Of a DNA stretch of 33,021 nt, positions 118 through 11,913 are shown one piece after another. How positions within the stretch are numbered: position 1 is the stretch's first letter; each line of letters starts with the position of its first letter. Position numbers and translations under genes: made by a program. The notes beneath the pieces were generated by a model. That model was not told the origin of the DNA, did no database searches, and saw only the letters and a program-made list of their open reading frames with translations. The stretch covers positions 1 to 33,021 of the forward strand of contig JAAYEV010000135.1 of the NCBI GenBank assembly GCA_012728565.1, read 5' to 3'. This DNA is from Clostridiales bacterium (GTDB lineage: Bacteria > Bacillota > Clostridia > Ch29).

Positions 118-137
118 GCCCACCCTTAGGGGTGGGC
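118..137 (-). terminator. Perfect 8-bp inverted repeat (GCCCACCC TTAG/CTAA GGGTGGGC) at the 3' end of the AOR/NuoEFG-like operon
   Basis: gcccaccc-ttag-gggtgggc read directly; the stop codon of the 126..896 CDS sits in the loop; no strong U-tract follows on the minus strand. Confidence 0.5.
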
Positions 138-896
138 AATGTTTTTGAAGGTTATGTTTTGGAAGGCGTCCCGGAAACCGTCGGCGCTTTTCTTCCTCTT
201 GCAGACTTCGCAAAGGAGTACCACTTCGCTCTCCGGGTCCTTGGCCTTCAAGTGCTCGTACTGTTCGGGAGTCATTATATACCTGCCGCAGCAGGTACAC
301 TGAAGCAGCTCAAAGTCCTTGTCCCATATTGTCCTTATACCGCCTTCCTCCTTCATCTCAATGGCACCGCTGGGGCACACATGGGCACAGGAGCCGCAGC
401 CAATGCACGCCTCCGGCGGTTCCTTAAAGGGCGGCGCCACCTCCTTTGCGGTGCCCCTGTTTATGATCGAAATGGCCCCGGCGCCAAGTTTTTCGCAGGC
501 CCTGACGCACAGGCCGCACAGCATGCACTTTTCACCCTCATCTGCCTCGAACCGGCTCTCCGGCAGCGGCCCGTACCGCTCCAGCAGGTCCTCCATGTGC
601 TTCCCTTGGGGGGAGCTTGCATAAAGAAGCTTTACCAGGGTTTTTCTTATACGCTGTATCTTATCCGAATTTGTTATTACTTCAATCCCGTCTTTAACGG
701 GATACACGCAGGAGGCAACGGGTTTGCTCCTCCCGCCCTCCTTGACCTCCACTATGCACATGCGGCAGCAGCTCTGGCCGGGTAGGGCATCCAGATGGCA
801 CAGCGTGGGTATGTATACGCCCTCCCTCCTTGCCACGTCCAGCAAGTACTCGCCGCGCCTTGCACTGCATTCCCTGCCGTCAATTATTATTTTCAT
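126..896 (-). CDS. NuoG N-terminal/HydC-like Fe-S subunit: 2Fe-2S ferredoxin domain plus 4Fe-4S clusters
   Basis: MKIIIDGRECSARRGEYLLDVARREGVYIPTLCH...GQSCCRMCIVEV (2Fe-2S), CMLCGLCVRAC and CIGCGSCAHVC (4Fe-4S); start set at MKIII rather than the ORF-track start. Confidence 0.85.
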   Translation of the reverse strand: MKIIIDGRECSARRGEYLLDVARREGVYIPTLCHLDALPGQSCCRMCIVEVKEGGRSKPVASCVYPVKDGIEVITNSDKIQRIRKTLVKLLYASSPQGKHMEDLLERYGPLPESRFEADEGEKCMLCGLCVRACEKLGAGAISIINRGTAKEVAPPFKEPPEACIGCGSCAHVCPSGAIEMKEEGGIRTIWDKDFELLQCTCCGRYIMTPEQYEHLKAKDPESEVVLLCEVCKRKKSADGFRDAFQNITFKNIAHP

Positions 897-2719
897 ACAG
901 CCGCACCTCCCCCAATGCTTACCGCGCCGAATTTGCAAACCTGCCTGCACCGGCCGCATTTTATGCAAAGGTCTGGGTCTATGGTATACTTGTCCCCTGG
1001 CTTACCCGTTATGGCACCGGCGGGACAGTTCTTGGCGCACAGGCCGCAGCCCCTGCAGAGGCTTCCCTCTATATAATACTGGGTAAGCGCGGGACACACC
1101 CCCGCCCTGCAGCGCTTGTCGCGAATATGCTCCAGGTACTCTTCCCTGAAATACCGTAGGGTGGTTTCCACCGGGTTTGGCGCGGTTTTGCCCAGCCCGC
1201 ACAGCGACGCCTCCCTCAAGGCTTCGCAGATTTCAAGCAGCGTGTCTACATCCTCCTTATGGCCGCGGCCTGCGCATATATCGTTAAGTATGCCCAGCAT
1301 CCTCCTAAGGCCTTCCCTGCAGGGCAGGCATTTGCCGCAGGATTCCTCCGCCAGGAACCCGGTGTAATACCGCGCCACCTCCACCATGCAGGTGTCCTCA
1401 TCCATTACAATCATGCCGCCCGAGCCCATCATGGAACCGGCGCCGCTTAGGGATTCAAAGTCCACTTTCAGGTCCAGCATGCTCCCGGGGATGCATCCCC
1501 CCGAGGGCCCGCCGGTCTGGACCGCCTTAAAGGCCTTCCCGCCGGGTATCCCGCCGCCTATGTCGAATATTATCTTCCTCAGGCTTATCCCCATGGGCAC
1601 CTCTATGAGGCCGGTGTTTTGCACCTTGCCCACCAGCGAGAACACTTTGGTACCCTTGCTCCCCCCGGTGCCGATGGAGCTAAACCAATCGCTGCCCCTG
1701 TCAATGATAACCGGCACGTTGGCCCATGTCTCCACGTTGTTCAGAACAGTGGGTTTGTCCCAAAGCCCCCTCTCGGTGGCGTGGATGTACTTGGCCCGGG
1801 GCTCGCCCACCCTTCCCTCTATAGAAGCCATAAGCGCCGAGGATTCGCCGCAAACAAAGGCACCCCCTCCCCGGACAATGCTCAGGTCAAACCCAAAACC
1901 GCTGCCCATAATACTTTCGCCTAGAAAGCCTTGCTCCTTCGCCTGCCGGATGGCCGCTGACATGTTTTTAAGCGCCAGCGAATACTCATCCCGGATGTAA
2001 ATAAACCCCTGCCGGGAACCCACCGCGTAGGCACCTATGACCATCCCCTCTATAATGCTGTGGGGGTCCCCTTCCATTATGCTTCTGTCCATAAAGGCCC
2101 CGGGGTCGCCCTCGTCACCGTTGCACAGCACGTACCTGGGAGTATCATCGGAAGCGGCGCAGTGTCTCCATTTGCGGCCGGTGGGAAAACCGGCGCCGCC
2201 CCGGCCCCTTAAACCGGACTTTTCCATTTCTGCGGTTACATCCTCCGGCTTCATCTTTGAAAGCGCCTTCTCAAGGGCCCTGTACCCGCCCCTTTGGATA
2301 TAATCGTCAATATTCGCCGGGTCAATCTCGCCAATGTTTCGCAGTGCTATTTTTAGCTGGTTCTTGTAAAAAGCGGTATCCTTGTGGGATTTAACCTTTT
2401 TGCCGGTGGCGGGGTCGGTGTACAAAAGCCTTTCCACCACCCTTCCCCCTGCCAGGGTCTCCCGGACAATCTCTTCCACGTCGGGTACCTTTACCCTGCA
2501 GTAAAAAATGTCATCTGGCAGTATTTTAACGATGGGGCCCATCTCGCAAAGGCCGTTGCACCCGGTGGCCTTTGCAGCCGCCTTAACCCTTACCGGTTGG
2601 TCGGCGTTCTTTAGCATTCTTTCGAACTCTCTGTACACCCCATGGCTGCCGTTGGCAAGGCACCCGGTACCGCAGCATACCAGCACCGTCCGTTTCGGCC
2701 TGCTTCTAAATATCCCCAT
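893..2719 (-). CDS. NuoF/HydB-like NAD(P)H-binding flavoprotein subunit with N-terminal thioredoxin-like 2Fe-2S domain and C-terminal 2x[4Fe-4S] ferredoxin domain
   Basis: GLRGRGGAGFPTGRKW, CNGDEGDPGAFMDR, ESCGKCLPCREG, CRGCGLCAKNCP, CIKCGRCRQVC; start at MGIFRSRPK. Confidence 0.92.
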   Translation of the reverse strand: MGIFRSRPKRTVLVCCGTGCLANGSHGVYREFERMLKNADQPVRVKAAAKATGCNGLCEMGPIVKILPDDIFYCRVKVPDVEEIVRETLAGGRVVERLLYTDPATGKKVKSHKDTAFYKNQLKIALRNIGEIDPANIDDYIQRGGYRALEKALSKMKPEDVTAEMEKSGLRGRGGAGFPTGRKWRHCAASDDTPRYVLCNGDEGDPGAFMDRSIMEGDPHSIIEGMVIGAYAVGSRQGFIYIRDEYSLALKNMSAAIRQAKEQGFLGESIMGSGFGFDLSIVRGGGAFVCGESSALMASIEGRVGEPRAKYIHATERGLWDKPTVLNNVETWANVPVIIDRGSDWFSSIGTGGSKGTKVFSLVGKVQNTGLIEVPMGISLRKIIFDIGGGIPGGKAFKAVQTGGPSGGCIPGSMLDLKVDFESLSGAGSMMGSGGMIVMDEDTCMVEVARYYTGFLAEESCGKCLPCREGLRRMLGILNDICAGRGHKEDVDTLLEICEALREASLCGLGKTAPNPVETTLRYFREEYLEHIRDKRCRAGVCPALTQYYIEGSLCRGCGLCAKNCPAGAITGKPGDKYTIDPDLCIKCGRCRQVCKFGAVSIGGGAAV

Positions 2720-3212
2720 AGCCTTTTCCCCCCAGCATGCCAAGTATTTCCCGTATCTTGTCCGGCTCTACCTTCGCATAATACACATCGTTTATTACCA
2801 TAACCGGTGCCAGGGCACAGGACCCAAGGCAGTTAACCGTCTCCAGCGAGAACCGACCGTCTACGGTGGTCTCCCCCGGCTCAATGCCAAGCAGCCTTTT
2901 CAGCTCGTCCAGCAGCCCCTGGGAGTTCTTTATATGGCATGCAGTCCCGTCGCATACCTTTATCACGTACTCACCCTTGGGCTTTAGGCTCAGGGCCTTG
3001 TAAAAGGTCGCCATGCTGTACAGCCTGCTTAGGGGCACGTCCAGGTGGAGGCGTACCGTCTCCAGAGCCTCCCTGGGAAGGTACCCATATGTTTTTTGTA
3101 TATCCTGCAGAATGGCAAGCAGGAACCTCTGCTCCCGGGGGTAACCATCCAGTATCTCCCGTACAGGCGCAAGGTCCTCCCTTTGCTTTACAAAGTCCAT
3201 TATATCTATCAC
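2706..3212 (-). CDS. NuoE/HydA-gamma-like thioredoxin-fold 2Fe-2S subunit
   Basis: VKVCDGTACHIKNS...TVNCLGSCALAPVMVINDVYY. Confidence 0.92.
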   Translation of the reverse strand: MIDIMDFVKQREDLAPVREILDGYPREQRFLLAILQDIQKTYGYLPREALETVRLHLDVPLSRLYSMATFYKALSLKPKGEYVIKVCDGTACHIKNSQGLLDELKRLLGIEPGETTVDGRFSLETVNCLGSCALAPVMVINDVYYAKVEPDKIREILGMLGGKGYGDI

Positions 3213-3217
3213 CTTCT

Positions 3218-3493
3218 TTATCCTCCGGCCACCACGGGGAATATGGATACCTCGTCGTCCTTTTCAAGCGGCGTGTCCATCCCCTGCAGGTGAACCACGT
3301 TTCTGCCGTTTACCAGCACTATAATCTTGCTGCCCAGTTTTCCGTCCTCCAAGAGGAGGGAGCATAACTCCCTGCCGTAGAGACTGCAAAGGTGCTGCAA
3401 TAAACCACCCACACTGCCGCATCCTTGTTCTGCAACGTCAATCTCCCGGCTCCCTGTATGCTCCCTTATTGTAGCAAAGAACTTAACCTTCAT
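3218..3493 (-). CDS. MoaD/ThiS family sulfur-carrier-like protein
   Basis: Small protein, MKVKFFATIREHTG..., C-terminal VSIFPVVAGG diglycine. Confidence 0.88.
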   Translation of the reverse strand: MKVKFFATIREHTGSREIDVAEQGCGSVGGLLQHLCSLYGRELCSLLLEDGKLGSKIIVLVNGRNVVHLQGMDTPLEKDDEVSIFPVVAGG

Positions 3494-3506: not shown

Positions 3507-5315
3507 TTACCCTATCGAAAGGTCCTGAAGTTTTTCGGCAGTAGGAACGCCGTCGGCGCCCCAGCCCCTGACTTCATAGTATTCCGGCAGCATTTTTTCA
3601 AGGTCCACCACTTTGCCCTTCGCGGGGCCGGACTGAAGCGGTTCTTTAAGAAGCCTGGGCGGCAGCGTGTCATCGGCGGCGGTAAACCCGGCCTTGATAT
3701 TGAACATCCTCTCCAGGTTCCATATCCTCTCACCGGCCTTTAGTATCTCTTCGTCGGTGGCGTTAATACCGGTGGCGGTCCGCAGCATGGAGGATATCTC
3801 TGGCAGCCCTATGGCGAAGGTGGTAAACAGGCATATCCCGGCGGAATCCACCACCGCGGTGAGGTCCTGGAATATCTTCAGCCATCCGGCCTTACCCTCG
3901 GTAACCAGCGGGTCAAGCTTTTCGGGTATGCCCAGTATCTCCGGCGATGTTAGATATCCCCTTACATGGCAGCCGCCGCGGTTGGAGGTGGCGTATTCAA
4001 GGCCCATCCCCTGCACGCCCCTGGCGTCATAGGCCGGCATTTCCTGTTTCTTTACCGACATCGAAAGCTCCGGGCAGCCGTATTTGGACGCCATCCTGTA
4101 GGAGCCCTCGGCCAGCACATCACCGAAGCCTTCCCTCAGGCCTATCATGCGGGTAAGCTCTACCAGGGCTTCCGCATCACCGAAGGGTATGGCCCTGCCG
4201 ACCTCTTCCTCGGTCAATATTCCCTTTTCATACATCTCCATCGCGCAGGCGATGGTGGCACCCGTTGTAATGGGGTCAATGCCCAGCTCGTTGCAAATGA
4301 AGTTGGCCTTGCTCACCGCCTCCAGGTCACCCACGCCGCAGCATGCGCCCAAGGCCCAGCCCGCTTCGTACTCGGGACCTTCTCCGAAGCTCTTGAACTT
4401 GCCTTCCGGGATACGCGTAATCCTTCCGCAGCCTATGTTGCAGCCGAAGCACCCCTTGTTCCTTACCAGGTACTTTTCGGCCAGGGTTTCACCGCTAATG
4501 CCCTCGGCCTCCTCGAATATGCCGCCGTCCCTCCAGTTCCTGGTGGGAAGCGCCCCCGACTGGTTAAGGATGTTTATCAGTATCTGGGTACCGTAGGTGG
4601 GTAGACCCCCGCCAGTAACCGGGTGTTCTTTTAGCTTTGTCCTGGCATCGGTGCAGGCCTCCATGAAGCCCTCGGGGTCGGCCACCTTTATGGACTTGGA
4701 GCCCTTTACCGCGACCGCCTTAAGGTTCTTTGACCCCATAACCGCTCCGAGGCCGGACCTGCCCGCAGCCCTGTTCCTGTCGTTTAGAACTCCGGCAAAT
4801 AGTACCATCTTTTCACCGCCCGGGCCTATGCATGCTACCCTGGCATCCTCCGCTGTTTCCGCAAGCACCGTGTCGGTGGTTTCAAACACGTTTTTACCCC
4901 ACAGGTGCAAGGCGTCCCGCAGCTCAACATTGTCGTCCTCAATCCACAGGTAGACGGGTTTTTCCGCCCTGCCCTCGAAAATTATCCCGTCATAGCCGGC
5001 GTACTTCAGCTCCGGCCCAAAATGGCCCCCCGAGTTGGAAGCGCCTATGGTGCCGGTAAGCGGCGCCTTGGCCACCACTTCATACCTGCCGCCGCTGCTG
5101 GCAAAGGTCCCGGTCAGCGGCCCGGTCATGAATATCAGCTTGTTTTCCTCGGACAACGGGTCCACCTTCGGGTCCACCTCGTCCATCATAATTTTTGTGG
5201 CAAGCCCCCTGGCCCCCAGGTACATCTCGGCATCCTTCGGGCATAGGGCCTCTTTCTTTATGGTTCCGTCGGTCAGGTTAACGCGCAGCAAATTTCCTGT
5301 CCAGCCAAACATCAT
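3507..5315 (-). CDS. Aldehyde:ferredoxin oxidoreductase family (tungsten/molybdenum bis-pterin enzyme)
   Basis: [99 protein letters not shown] motifs of the AOR family. Confidence 0.95.
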
Positions 5316-5791
5316 TCATTCACCTCCCCAAACAACTCGCTGAATTTTTCAGCGATAACCTTTTTCCTGCCCATGGTTCCGGGCGCGGCCTCACGGTATT
5401 CGATGGCTCCCGACGGGCAGTATTGGGCACACTTTGGATCCCCTTCGCAGAGGTTGCATTTTACCACCTTACCTTCATAGGTGTTGAAGGTAATGTTGCC
5501 AAGTGGACATGCGCTGACGCACATTTTGCAACCGATGCACTTCCTCTCGTCAATTGCCACCAGCCCGTCCGCGGTTTTTGTGATAGCGTCGGTGGGGCAC
5601 ACTCTCATGCAGGACGGGTCCTCGCACTGCATGCACATCATGGGCACCGACACCGCCGCCTCGTCGTACGTGAATACCGAGACTCTTGAGTTCTTTGGAT
5701 TGAAAGCGTTGATTTTTGTGAAGGAGCATACCAGTTCGCAGGTTCTGCAGCCGATGCACTTTTCAGGTGAGATCATAAGAATTTTGCTCAC
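5312..5791 (-). CDS. 4Fe-4S dicluster-type ferredoxin subunit, likely electron-transfer partner of the AOR
   Basis: [55 protein letters not shown] start with GGAGGG RBS; ATGA-type overlap with the AOR CDS. Confidence 0.9.
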
Positions 5792-5849
5792 ATCCCTCCG
5801 GCTCCGTCAAAGAAACGGGCGCCGGATTTCACCTCCCCCTTTATTTATT

Positions 5850-5904
5850 AAAAAAAGTTCACCCGCTGCTTTCGGCAAGAATATGCCCCAGGCAGCAAAT
5901 GAAC
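5850..5904 (-). terminator. Intrinsic terminator/attenuator in the 5' leader of the AOR operon
   Basis: Minus strand: GTTCA-ttt-GCTGC-ctgg-GGCA-tattct-TGCC-gaaa-GCAGC-ggg-TGAAC-TTTTTTT, nested complementary arms directly followed by 7 U, located upstream of the first gene of the operon. Confidence 0.75.
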
Positions 5905-6000
5905 TCCTTTGCAATAACGGCAGGCGTAAGTATTACTCCTCGCACCCTGGCGCCCCACAGCCCCTTTTACCGGGTCCGTGGGGTCGGAGAAAGACTCTCT
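5905..6000 (-). ncRNA. Candidate structured leader RNA (possible riboswitch aptamer) of the AOR operon
   Basis: Minus strand CTCC-gac-CCCAC...GTGGG-...-GGAG nested pairing plus GTAA-tac-TTAC hairpin immediately upstream of the attenuator; class not recognised. Confidence 0.4.
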
Positions 6001-6415
6001 ATTTTTTTGAGCAAACCATGATGCTGATTTTTCAGATGCTTTTATGAAGTATTAAAACAGAAATGTGTCAATCGAATCAGTATAATAATTCTTCTGCAAA
6101 CAACACAGAAATCCTTCTAAAAAATGGAACAATTGTAGAATAATTAACTGCTCGTTCCACCTTTCTATATATATTAACCCAGTACAGAAATATGAGTATG
6201 ATTTTTCGCCTGTCGCCGGCATATTCATCGGTTTTTACAGTTTAAGTTACAAAACCTCCCCACTCCTACAAAAGCGCTGGGCTGCACCATCGATTGCATA
6301 TAAGAAGCTACAAAAACTATGGTCTGACATATAGTAAACTAGAAATCCGAGCTGAGGCGTTATACATAGTGCTAAAATGCAAAGCAAAATTCAAGCACTG
6401 GACAGGAGGCCTGCA

Positions 6416-10311: not shown

Positions 10312-11769
10312 CTACTTAAAATAATCCAGTATTTTCCTTATAAGGCCTCGTTCTGAAAAAGACTTGGATTTCTCCCAAAGCTCGATATGCTTGTTTGTCA
10401 TTTCTTCGAGGGCAAGTTGATGCTCTTTGAATTTGTTTTGCCAGTTGTTTATCGCGGACAATATCCCGGAGTTTTCGCGTTTAATCTGTTCCAGCCTTTC
10501 CCCCAGCCGCTGTACTTCTTTTTTAAACTCCTCCAGGTCATTGTAGCTTTGTTTTATTTCATCGGTATGCTTCATAATCATTCCTTCTATTTCTTTTTTC
10601 TTTCCCTCTATCTTGCTCACCTCTTCTACCAGTTTACTGATAAAGTTTTTTGCCTCGACGGCATACTCTTTTATCTTTTCCTCGTCAACATCAACGCTGA
10701 TATTTTGCTCCTCGGCTTTCGGATGCTCTCCGTTCAATACTTCATCTATAACGGGAATTATTACATCCCCATCCCTCTCATAGCCATAGGCAAGTGAAAC
10801 CGAAACCTCAGGGTATTCGCTGTTATCCAGGATTACTTTGTATATTTTTAACCGGCAGTCCAGCGGTGTGTCTATACGTACAGGGCTGGTCCAGTTCTTG
10901 CCTTCGTCATAGCTGAAGCTGCCCAGCATTAAGTCTTTATGTATCCATACAACCCACTGGGTATTGCCTATTATGTAGAAAAGCGGCTGCTCATTATCTG
11001 CTCCTTCATCGGTTATTATTGAATCGTTTTTCCATACAGCCCTTTGGTAGCTTATCCGGGTACGCTGCAGATACTTGATATGATTAACGCCGTTTGTAAT
11101 ATAATTCCACACCAGGTGCAGCGTATCATTGTTGTTTGTCAGCGCATAATGATAGGTATCCCTTCCACTCAATGTTGTTATCTTTTCGGGGTTGCCCCAT
11201 ACGGAGTATTCAGGTCGGAACCTGCAGTAGAATAACTGCTCAACGCCCAGCCTAGGAGCTTTGTAGACAAGGTGAATGGTACCGACATGGTCATATCCCA
11301 CAAAGAAGGGGCTAATACCGCTATCCGACGTTATCCTGGCTACCTTAAAGTTTTCCCATTTACTTCCGTTCCAGAAATTATGCTGTATACTGCAAATGCT
11401 TGGGTTTCTCAAGGAGCATACCGCAAAAAAGACGTTTATAAACTTACCCCGGCATGAGATAGTCAGGTATTTCAGCTTGTATCTGTCCAAAGGAAAAACG
11501 GCTAGCACTTTATTGTACCAATGGCTCCCGTTATACACAAAGTAAATCAATTCTCCCTTTGTATTTATGCATATGAGGTGAAGGCTCCCTGCCGAATCCA
11601 TGTCAACCGAAAAATCTCCCGCTGCATTGTCCAGCAGCTTGGTTTCTTCTCCCCAGTCCCCGTTTTCATCGCGCACCCTGTATACTATACGATTTTGTTT
11701 GCAGGCAAAGCGCCATGACTTGGTATTATTTTTTATTACTATGTATTCGTGGCAAAATGATTTGTCCAT
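10312..11769 (-). CDS. Uncharacterised protein: beta-propeller/sialidase-like repeats plus C-terminal coiled coil
   Basis: Repeated GxxHLV/LHLVW...W/SYDEGKNWTSPVRI-type blades; long EKIKEYAVEAKNFISKLVEEVSKIEGKKKEIEGM... helix; start at MDKSFCHEY with ggcggtgat RBS. Confidence 0.7.
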   Translation of the reverse strand: MDKSFCHEYIVIKNNTKSWRFACKQNRIVYRVRDENGDWGEETKLLDNAAGDFSVDMDSAGSLHLICINTKGELIYFVYNGSHWYNKVLAVFPLDRYKLKYLTISCRGKFINVFFAVCSLRNPSICSIQHNFWNGSKWENFKVARITSDSGISPFFVGYDHVGTIHLVYKAPRLGVEQLFYCRFRPEYSVWGNPEKITTLSGRDTYHYALTNNNDTLHLVWNYITNGVNHIKYLQRTRISYQRAVWKNDSIITDEGADNEQPLFYIIGNTQWVVWIHKDLMLGSFSYDEGKNWTSPVRIDTPLDCRLKIYKVILDNSEYPEVSVSLAYGYERDGDVIIPVIDEVLNGEHPKAEEQNISVDVDEEKIKEYAVEAKNFISKLVEEVSKIEGKKKEIEGMIMKHTDEIKQSYNDLEEFKKEVQRLGERLEQIKRENSGILSAINNWQNKFKEHQLALEEMTNKHIELWEKSKSFSERGLIRKILDYFK

Positions 11770-11913
11770 ATACAATATCACCGCCCTATAGCTTGTTAGT
11801 AAATTATATGCCGAACCATCCGATATATGTACGATAGGACATGATGATAATCATTTACCTGAGTTTGAATATACGGCTAAAGGATTAAACTTTATCAGGC
11901 AAATTCTTCACCA

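Follow-up and report, generated by a model that had tools for sequence, protein, structure and literature searches.

The leader of the minus-strand operon for a tungsten-type aldehyde ferredoxin oxidoreductase (AOR) in the 33,021-nt stretch of Clostridiales DNA that we analysed (hereafter the window) is, with a probability of roughly 70%, a transcription-terminating riboswitch of the Moco/tungsten-cofactor (Moco/Tuco) family, RF01055, which RNA would be turned on by its ligand through the mutual exclusion of its P1 helix and the terminator. The leader thus belongs to a known family, but to a new sub-type with a clear, testable prediction: that sub-type has no P3, carries a G-C instead of a C-G pair in P5, usually bears a GNRA loop other than GAAA, lacks the 11-nt tetraloop receptor in P2, and is found almost only before AOR.

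Identity and architecture of the leader

RF01055 was the single Rfam match in the whole window (6001–5888, minus strand), and its score of 48.6 bits against a gathering cut-off of 36 (E 7.5e-9) makes the leader a member of that family, so that the new riboswitch class that a preliminary description of this DNA had considered possible is not supported. The sub-type model R1, of which the window is itself one of the source sequences, scores 69.7 bits at 5902–5994. The same description had proposed a riboswitch coupled to a terminator and built on an aptamer of the Moco/Tuco type, which proposal agrees with both the covariance-model match and the covariation in related AOR leaders reported below. 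The CTCC...GGAG arms enclosing CCCAC...GTGGG that it listed are P1 around P2 of the Moco motif, but its GTAA-tac-TTAC pairing was a misreading, as that element belongs to the distal part of P4, in which GUAA forms the tetraloop and not the arm of a stem. That the conserved core could not be recognized at that stage is explained in part by the atypical sub-type of this copy, with its missing P3, its G-C pair in P5, its GUAA loop, and no receptor. The GAAA loop on P4 and the 11-nt receptor in P2 are typical of the family though not required for membership, and exceptions were already noted by Regulski et al. (PMC2408646). In P5 the strands of the Rfam consensus, CCUCCC...UUGGAAAGG, are represented in the window by CCUGCC...UUGCAAAGG, a change from C-G to G-C in which the pair is kept.

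The nested terminator arms previously pointed out, GTTCATTTGCTGC...GCAGCGGGTGAAC, are indeed present at 5904–5857 of the minus strand and are followed by exactly seven T, the distance from the U run to the first gene being some 58 nt (about 60 nt in the earlier estimate). The terminator hairpin has a folding energy of −29.8 kcal/mol (z −5.98), a stability reached by none of 200 dinucleotide shuffles, and the whole leader is likewise more stable than its shuffles (z −4.17). A sigma-70 promoter scan gave no convincing promoter; a perfect TTGACA at 6071–6066 is accompanied by a poor −10 element (CATAAA, spacer 19).

Table 1. Features of the leader and of the operon behind it, in window coordinates.
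Feature	Position	Strand	Basis
RF01055 aptamer, P3-lacking	5888..6001	-	cmscan; alignment with a 13-nt deletion over P3
P1 5' strand CUCC, partner 5907-5904	5986..5989	-	inner pairs invariant, outer pairs covary
P2 hairpin; A bulge then CCC/GGG; without 11-nt tetraloop receptor	5953..5983	-	covariation, receptor scan
P4 hairpin, GUAA tetraloop at 5936-5933	5922..5947	-	alignment, covariation, tetraloop tally
P5: G5921-C5911 and C5920-G5912, G-C sub-type (family consensus C-G, C-G)	5911..5921	-	Rfam alignment, classification
P1 3' strand GGAG; last G is the terminator closing base	5904..5907	-	sequence, overlap analysis
Intrinsic terminator hairpin and seven U	hairpin 5904-5857, U 5856-5850	-	folding; position conserved in orthologous leaders
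Shine-Dalgarno GGAGGUG (5836-5830), then hairpin UCCGGC..GCCGGA (5826-5797), before GTG 5791	5797..5836	-	sequence, folding
Ferredoxin-like 4Fe-4S subunit, first gene	5312..5791	-	Pfam Fer4 families
AOR, AFOR_N and AFOR_C	3507..5315	-	Pfam E 4e-83 and 2e-158
MoaD/ThiS-family sulfur carrier (pterin cofactor synthesis)	3218..3493	-	TIGR01687, NF041918 over cut-off
NuoE-like 2Fe-2S subunit	2706..3212	-	Pfam/NCBIfam
NuoF-like FMN subunit	893..2743	-	Pfam/NCBIfam
HoxU/NuoG-N-like Fe-S subunit	126..968	-	Pfam/NCBIfam

The genes behind the leader follow the order Fd-AOR-MoaD-NuoE-NuoF-HoxU (Table 1), and the use of W by this AOR we infer from its enzyme family. Elsewhere in the window, near a plus-strand polysaccharide gene cluster, a minus-strand ORF of 489 aa (10312–11781) had no Pfam or NCBIfam match.

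Covariation supports the architecture of P1, P2, P4, and P5, with the last of these helices being fixed by the search pattern. In an alignment of 26 related G-C leaders, 89.2% of the cells were paired according to that structure, and the double-change cells numbered 160 against a shuffle mean of 63; the conservation was accompanied by a covariation score of 0.508, compared with 0.220 for the shuffles and at most 0.243 for slid registers. The lack of conservation or covariation among orthologous leaders that would have counted against the earlier description was thus not observed. Double changes occurred in 19 of the 30 pairs and, within P2, in 10 of 11. Since P5 was invariant in this set, where the pattern had fixed it and no covariation could arise, the evidence for its pairing comes from the G-C/C-G difference between the sub-types.

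The P5 G-C sub-type and its linkage to AOR

The genome contains six RF01055 copies, among which the AOR copy alone combines the P5 G-C pair with GUAA in place of GAAA and the absence of the 11-nt receptor, none of the other five having a P5 of the G-C type. The AOR copy and its close relatives lack P3, and every RF01055 copy from this genome family is short (110–123 nt), a length consistent with that absence, which was also evident from the J2/4 sequence of the non-AOR copies. The loss of P3 was accordingly rejected as a marker of AOR leaders in this genome family, where the copies that precede transporter genes, MoaA-type genes, or others are just as short as the AOR leader and likewise devoid of this helix. 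The tetraloop GAAA is replaced by GCAA, GUAA, GCGA, or GUGA in 22 of 25 G-C copies but kept in 96 of 98 C-G copies, while a simple pattern test found the 11-nt receptor absent from 24 of the 25. Four leaders with a GGAA or GUAA loop (L071, L076, L077, and L081) have a longer P2 with a common internal motif, UUCyGACG...CGGGAA, which is perhaps an alternative tetraloop receptor. Another AOR leader (L126, G025:C145:6830-6939) carries a U-A pair in P5 instead of G-C, and its terminator overlaps as in the G-C type. In the literature searched, whose coverage left most subscription journals outside, we found no later work on the P5 variant or on AOR leaders.

Across the Bacillota an AOR lies downstream of 22 of the 25 P5 G-C RNAs versus 5 of the 98 P5 C-G RNAs (Fisher p 1.4e-16, a value that, like the other Fisher p-value given here, overstates independence, as related leaders share ancestry), the C-G copies of the phylum being the best Rfam scorers rather than a random sample. 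The remaining three G-C copies comprise two whose contigs break off within an AOR-type operon and one before a regulator-ADH-NuoEF operon. The linkage has exceptions, given the five P5 C-G copies that likewise stand before an AOR. Most of the G-C copies came from a pattern that required a G-C P5, with which 399 genomes of the phylum were searched and 18 structured copies besides the window were obtained, two chance matches having been removed; the pattern matches L196, L203, L293, and L298, in which the structure was absent, were set aside as chance. In a later class-level search, all four new structured G-C copies preceded an AOR; class-level searches around G070 and G101 yielded 10 genomes and 1 genome, respectively.

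When the AOR genes were taken as the starting point, the sub-type model gave 44 matches at 80 loci, consisting of 42 with P5 G-C, one with G-U, and one of another type, which last match sits far downstream of its AOR. RF01055, applied to 37 of those 80 loci, gave 27 matches at AOR leaders, all G-C or G-U; the leaders that it missed and that the sub-type model found include L012, L026, L031, L032, L036, and L039. A further G-C type AOR leader (L302, G045:C42:9088-9170) was absent from the RF01055 search of its own genome, indicating that Rfam can miss the sub-type. The operons behind the G-C RNAs vary in context—AOR first, Fd-AOR, NuoEF-HoxU-Fd-AOR, or regulator-ADH-permease-AOR—and in the identity of their AORs to that of the window (37–96%).

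Three loci have two G-C aptamers close together on opposite strands: L040 (3963-4054, minus; 4287-4375, plus), L041 (191-280, minus; 510-599, plus), and L079 (4034-4124, minus; 4296-4412, plus), which arrangement suggests divergent operons with a switch for each. The genome of the window contains another AOR-family gene (L292, G000:C156:4265-5590; 703 aa), with no riboswitch detected in the flank that was fetched. An unexpected Rfam match of 63.7 bits to STnc490, a Salmonella Hfq-binding sRNA, occurred at 327-439 (minus strand) of L009, from a Tepidanaerobacteraceae MAG.

Terminator register and predicted switch direction

The 5' arm of the terminator includes the 3' strand of P1 in 18 of the 19 G-C AOR leaders with a terminator-like hairpin, but in only 7 of 83 C-G non-AOR leaders (p 1.9e-13), in which the terminator begins about 28 nt further on. 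When the terminator 3' arm was withheld from folding, a downstream pairing of the P1 3' strand was seen in 37 of 68 C-G copies versus 1 of 18 G-C copies. The P5 C-G copies consequently look like OFF switches, their P1 3' strand engaging in an antiterminator-like pairing, and the register of the G-C copies predicts a ligand-ON switch. Among the orthologues, L008 has a 5' arm, AGCAAAGGAGCC, that is complementary over its full length to the 3' arm of the terminator, and the terminators of both L008 and L198 engage the entire GCAAAGGA core, making aptamer and terminator mutually exclusive; P1 and the terminator are fully exclusive in several orthologues (L008, L198, L199, and L188). The minimum-energy fold of the window leader contains the terminator and an open P1, the forced closure of P1 costing 6.9 kcal/mol, and the strict overlap amounts to one G-C pair plus the pairs of the U run. 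As that overlap is modest, the ON sign for the window derives from the relatives in which it is larger. In six G-C copies no terminator adjoining P1 was convincing, and these must either act by other means or have a terminator that was missed.

We propose that, without ligand, the P1 3' strand (GGAG) would join the terminator 5' arm and transcription would stop before the operon, whereas upon binding of the cofactor, most probably the tungsten pterin that serves AOR, P1 would close and take over the base of the terminator stem, allowing the RNA polymerase to read on. The enzyme genes would then be made only when the cofactor exists.

The same riboswitch might operate with the opposite sign, the bound aptamer promoting termination in the manner of the repression at E. 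coli moaA, where the Moco RNA acts as an OFF switch (PMC2408646); and with a single strictly overlapping pair, P1 and the terminator of the window could nearly coexist. We nevertheless consider that direction unlikely in view of the near absence of a separate antiterminator containing the P1 3' strand from the G-C copies and of the complete exclusion in the four orthologues named above, and because turning off a cofactor-requiring enzyme in the presence of its cofactor would make little physiological sense. Still less probable would be a constitutive or protein-controlled attenuator with no ligand-binding role for the RNA: direct binding of the cofactor has not been demonstrated for the family, Moco being unstable (PMC2408646), but the large conserved aptamer with its invariant junction nucleotides, its covariation, and the genetic data on the family from E. 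coli all argue for a ligand-binding RNA.

A separate consideration, which concerns the ligand and is compatible with the ON mechanism, is whether the P5 G-C pair bears on the metal at all. It is quite conceivable, at somewhat less than even odds, that this pair is an inherited signature of AOR leaders and that the RNA responds to Moco or to a form of the pterin, as the other copies do: many of the leaders are orthologous, P5 retains two Watson-Crick pairs in either state, so that the swap may be neutral, and deletion of P3 alone did not convert the specificity in E. coli. Against mere inheritance, however, the sub-type precedes divergent AOR subfamilies in different operon orders, other copies within the same genomes keep P5 C-G, and the change affects a region of the motif that is highly conserved. 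We therefore put forward, tentatively and as a minority expectation, that the G-C copies form a specificity class of their own, a true ON riboswitch for the tungsten cofactor (the AOR-type bis-pterin), in which P5 and not P3 would mark W versus Mo and possibly determine it; a preference of this RNA for W over Mo would follow from that assignment. The question of which RNA feature tells the Mo from the W cofactor dates from 2008, and a P5 swap that sorts AOR from other leaders within the same genomes offers a limited number of mutants with which it can be tested. The terminator register, for its part, predicts that one RNA fold represses the genes of biosynthesis and transport and activates the consuming enzyme.

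A hairpin separating the Shine-Dalgarno sequence from the start codon

The Shine-Dalgarno sequence of the first gene lies 40 nt from the start in linear distance, and some 10 nt once the intervening hairpin is excised. Among 67 AOR-ferredoxin leaders whose Shine-Dalgarno sequence is clear, 54 have a hairpin in that position; in those 54 the Shine-Dalgarno sequence is located 22–50 nt upstream of the start, with an excised spacing of mostly 7–13 nt, and the other 13 have it at 4–12 nt. We assessed the conservation of the hairpin by shuffles and anchored pair counts: its stability in the 54 leaders had a mean z of −3.5, all values being below −1, and its outer stem pairs were of many pair types, although those counts are partly circular for having been obtained by folding each sequence. 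The split arrangement is likewise present in leaders without any match to the riboswitch model and, if real, would be a second conserved layer in the same leader.

Comparison with known systems

The arrangement around the start codon resembles the split translation initiation region of T4 genes 25 and 38 (PMC3014915), where the spacing from the Shine-Dalgarno sequence to the start is likewise restored by an intervening hairpin; here, by comparison, it is predicted from sequence for a bacterial operon leader, downstream of a riboswitch, and before many AOR-ferredoxin genes of the Bacillota.

The riboswitch family was described by Regulski et al. (2008; PMC2408646), who reported OFF control at E. 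coli moaA. With that P3-containing form the window leader shares P1, P2, P4, P5, the junction nucleotides, and the position in the leader, but it differs in having no P3, a G-C pair in P5, GUAA instead of GAAA, and no 11-nt receptor, and in using a transcription terminator rather than a ribosome-binding site within P1, with a predicted ON instead of OFF response.

The same authors proposed that the P3-less copies sense the tungsten cofactor, with no direct binding shown, which proposal has been repeated in reviews. The window leader shares with that Tuco form the absence of P3 (a 13-nt gap) and, as predicted there, the association with a tungsten-type enzyme, AOR being the second gene of the operon. 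Four GCAA-loop RNAs without the receptor in that study were perhaps early members of the present sub-type. Within this family of genomes, however, what sets the AOR copies apart from the others is not the loss of P3 but the identity of P5, the tetraloop, and the register of the terminator.
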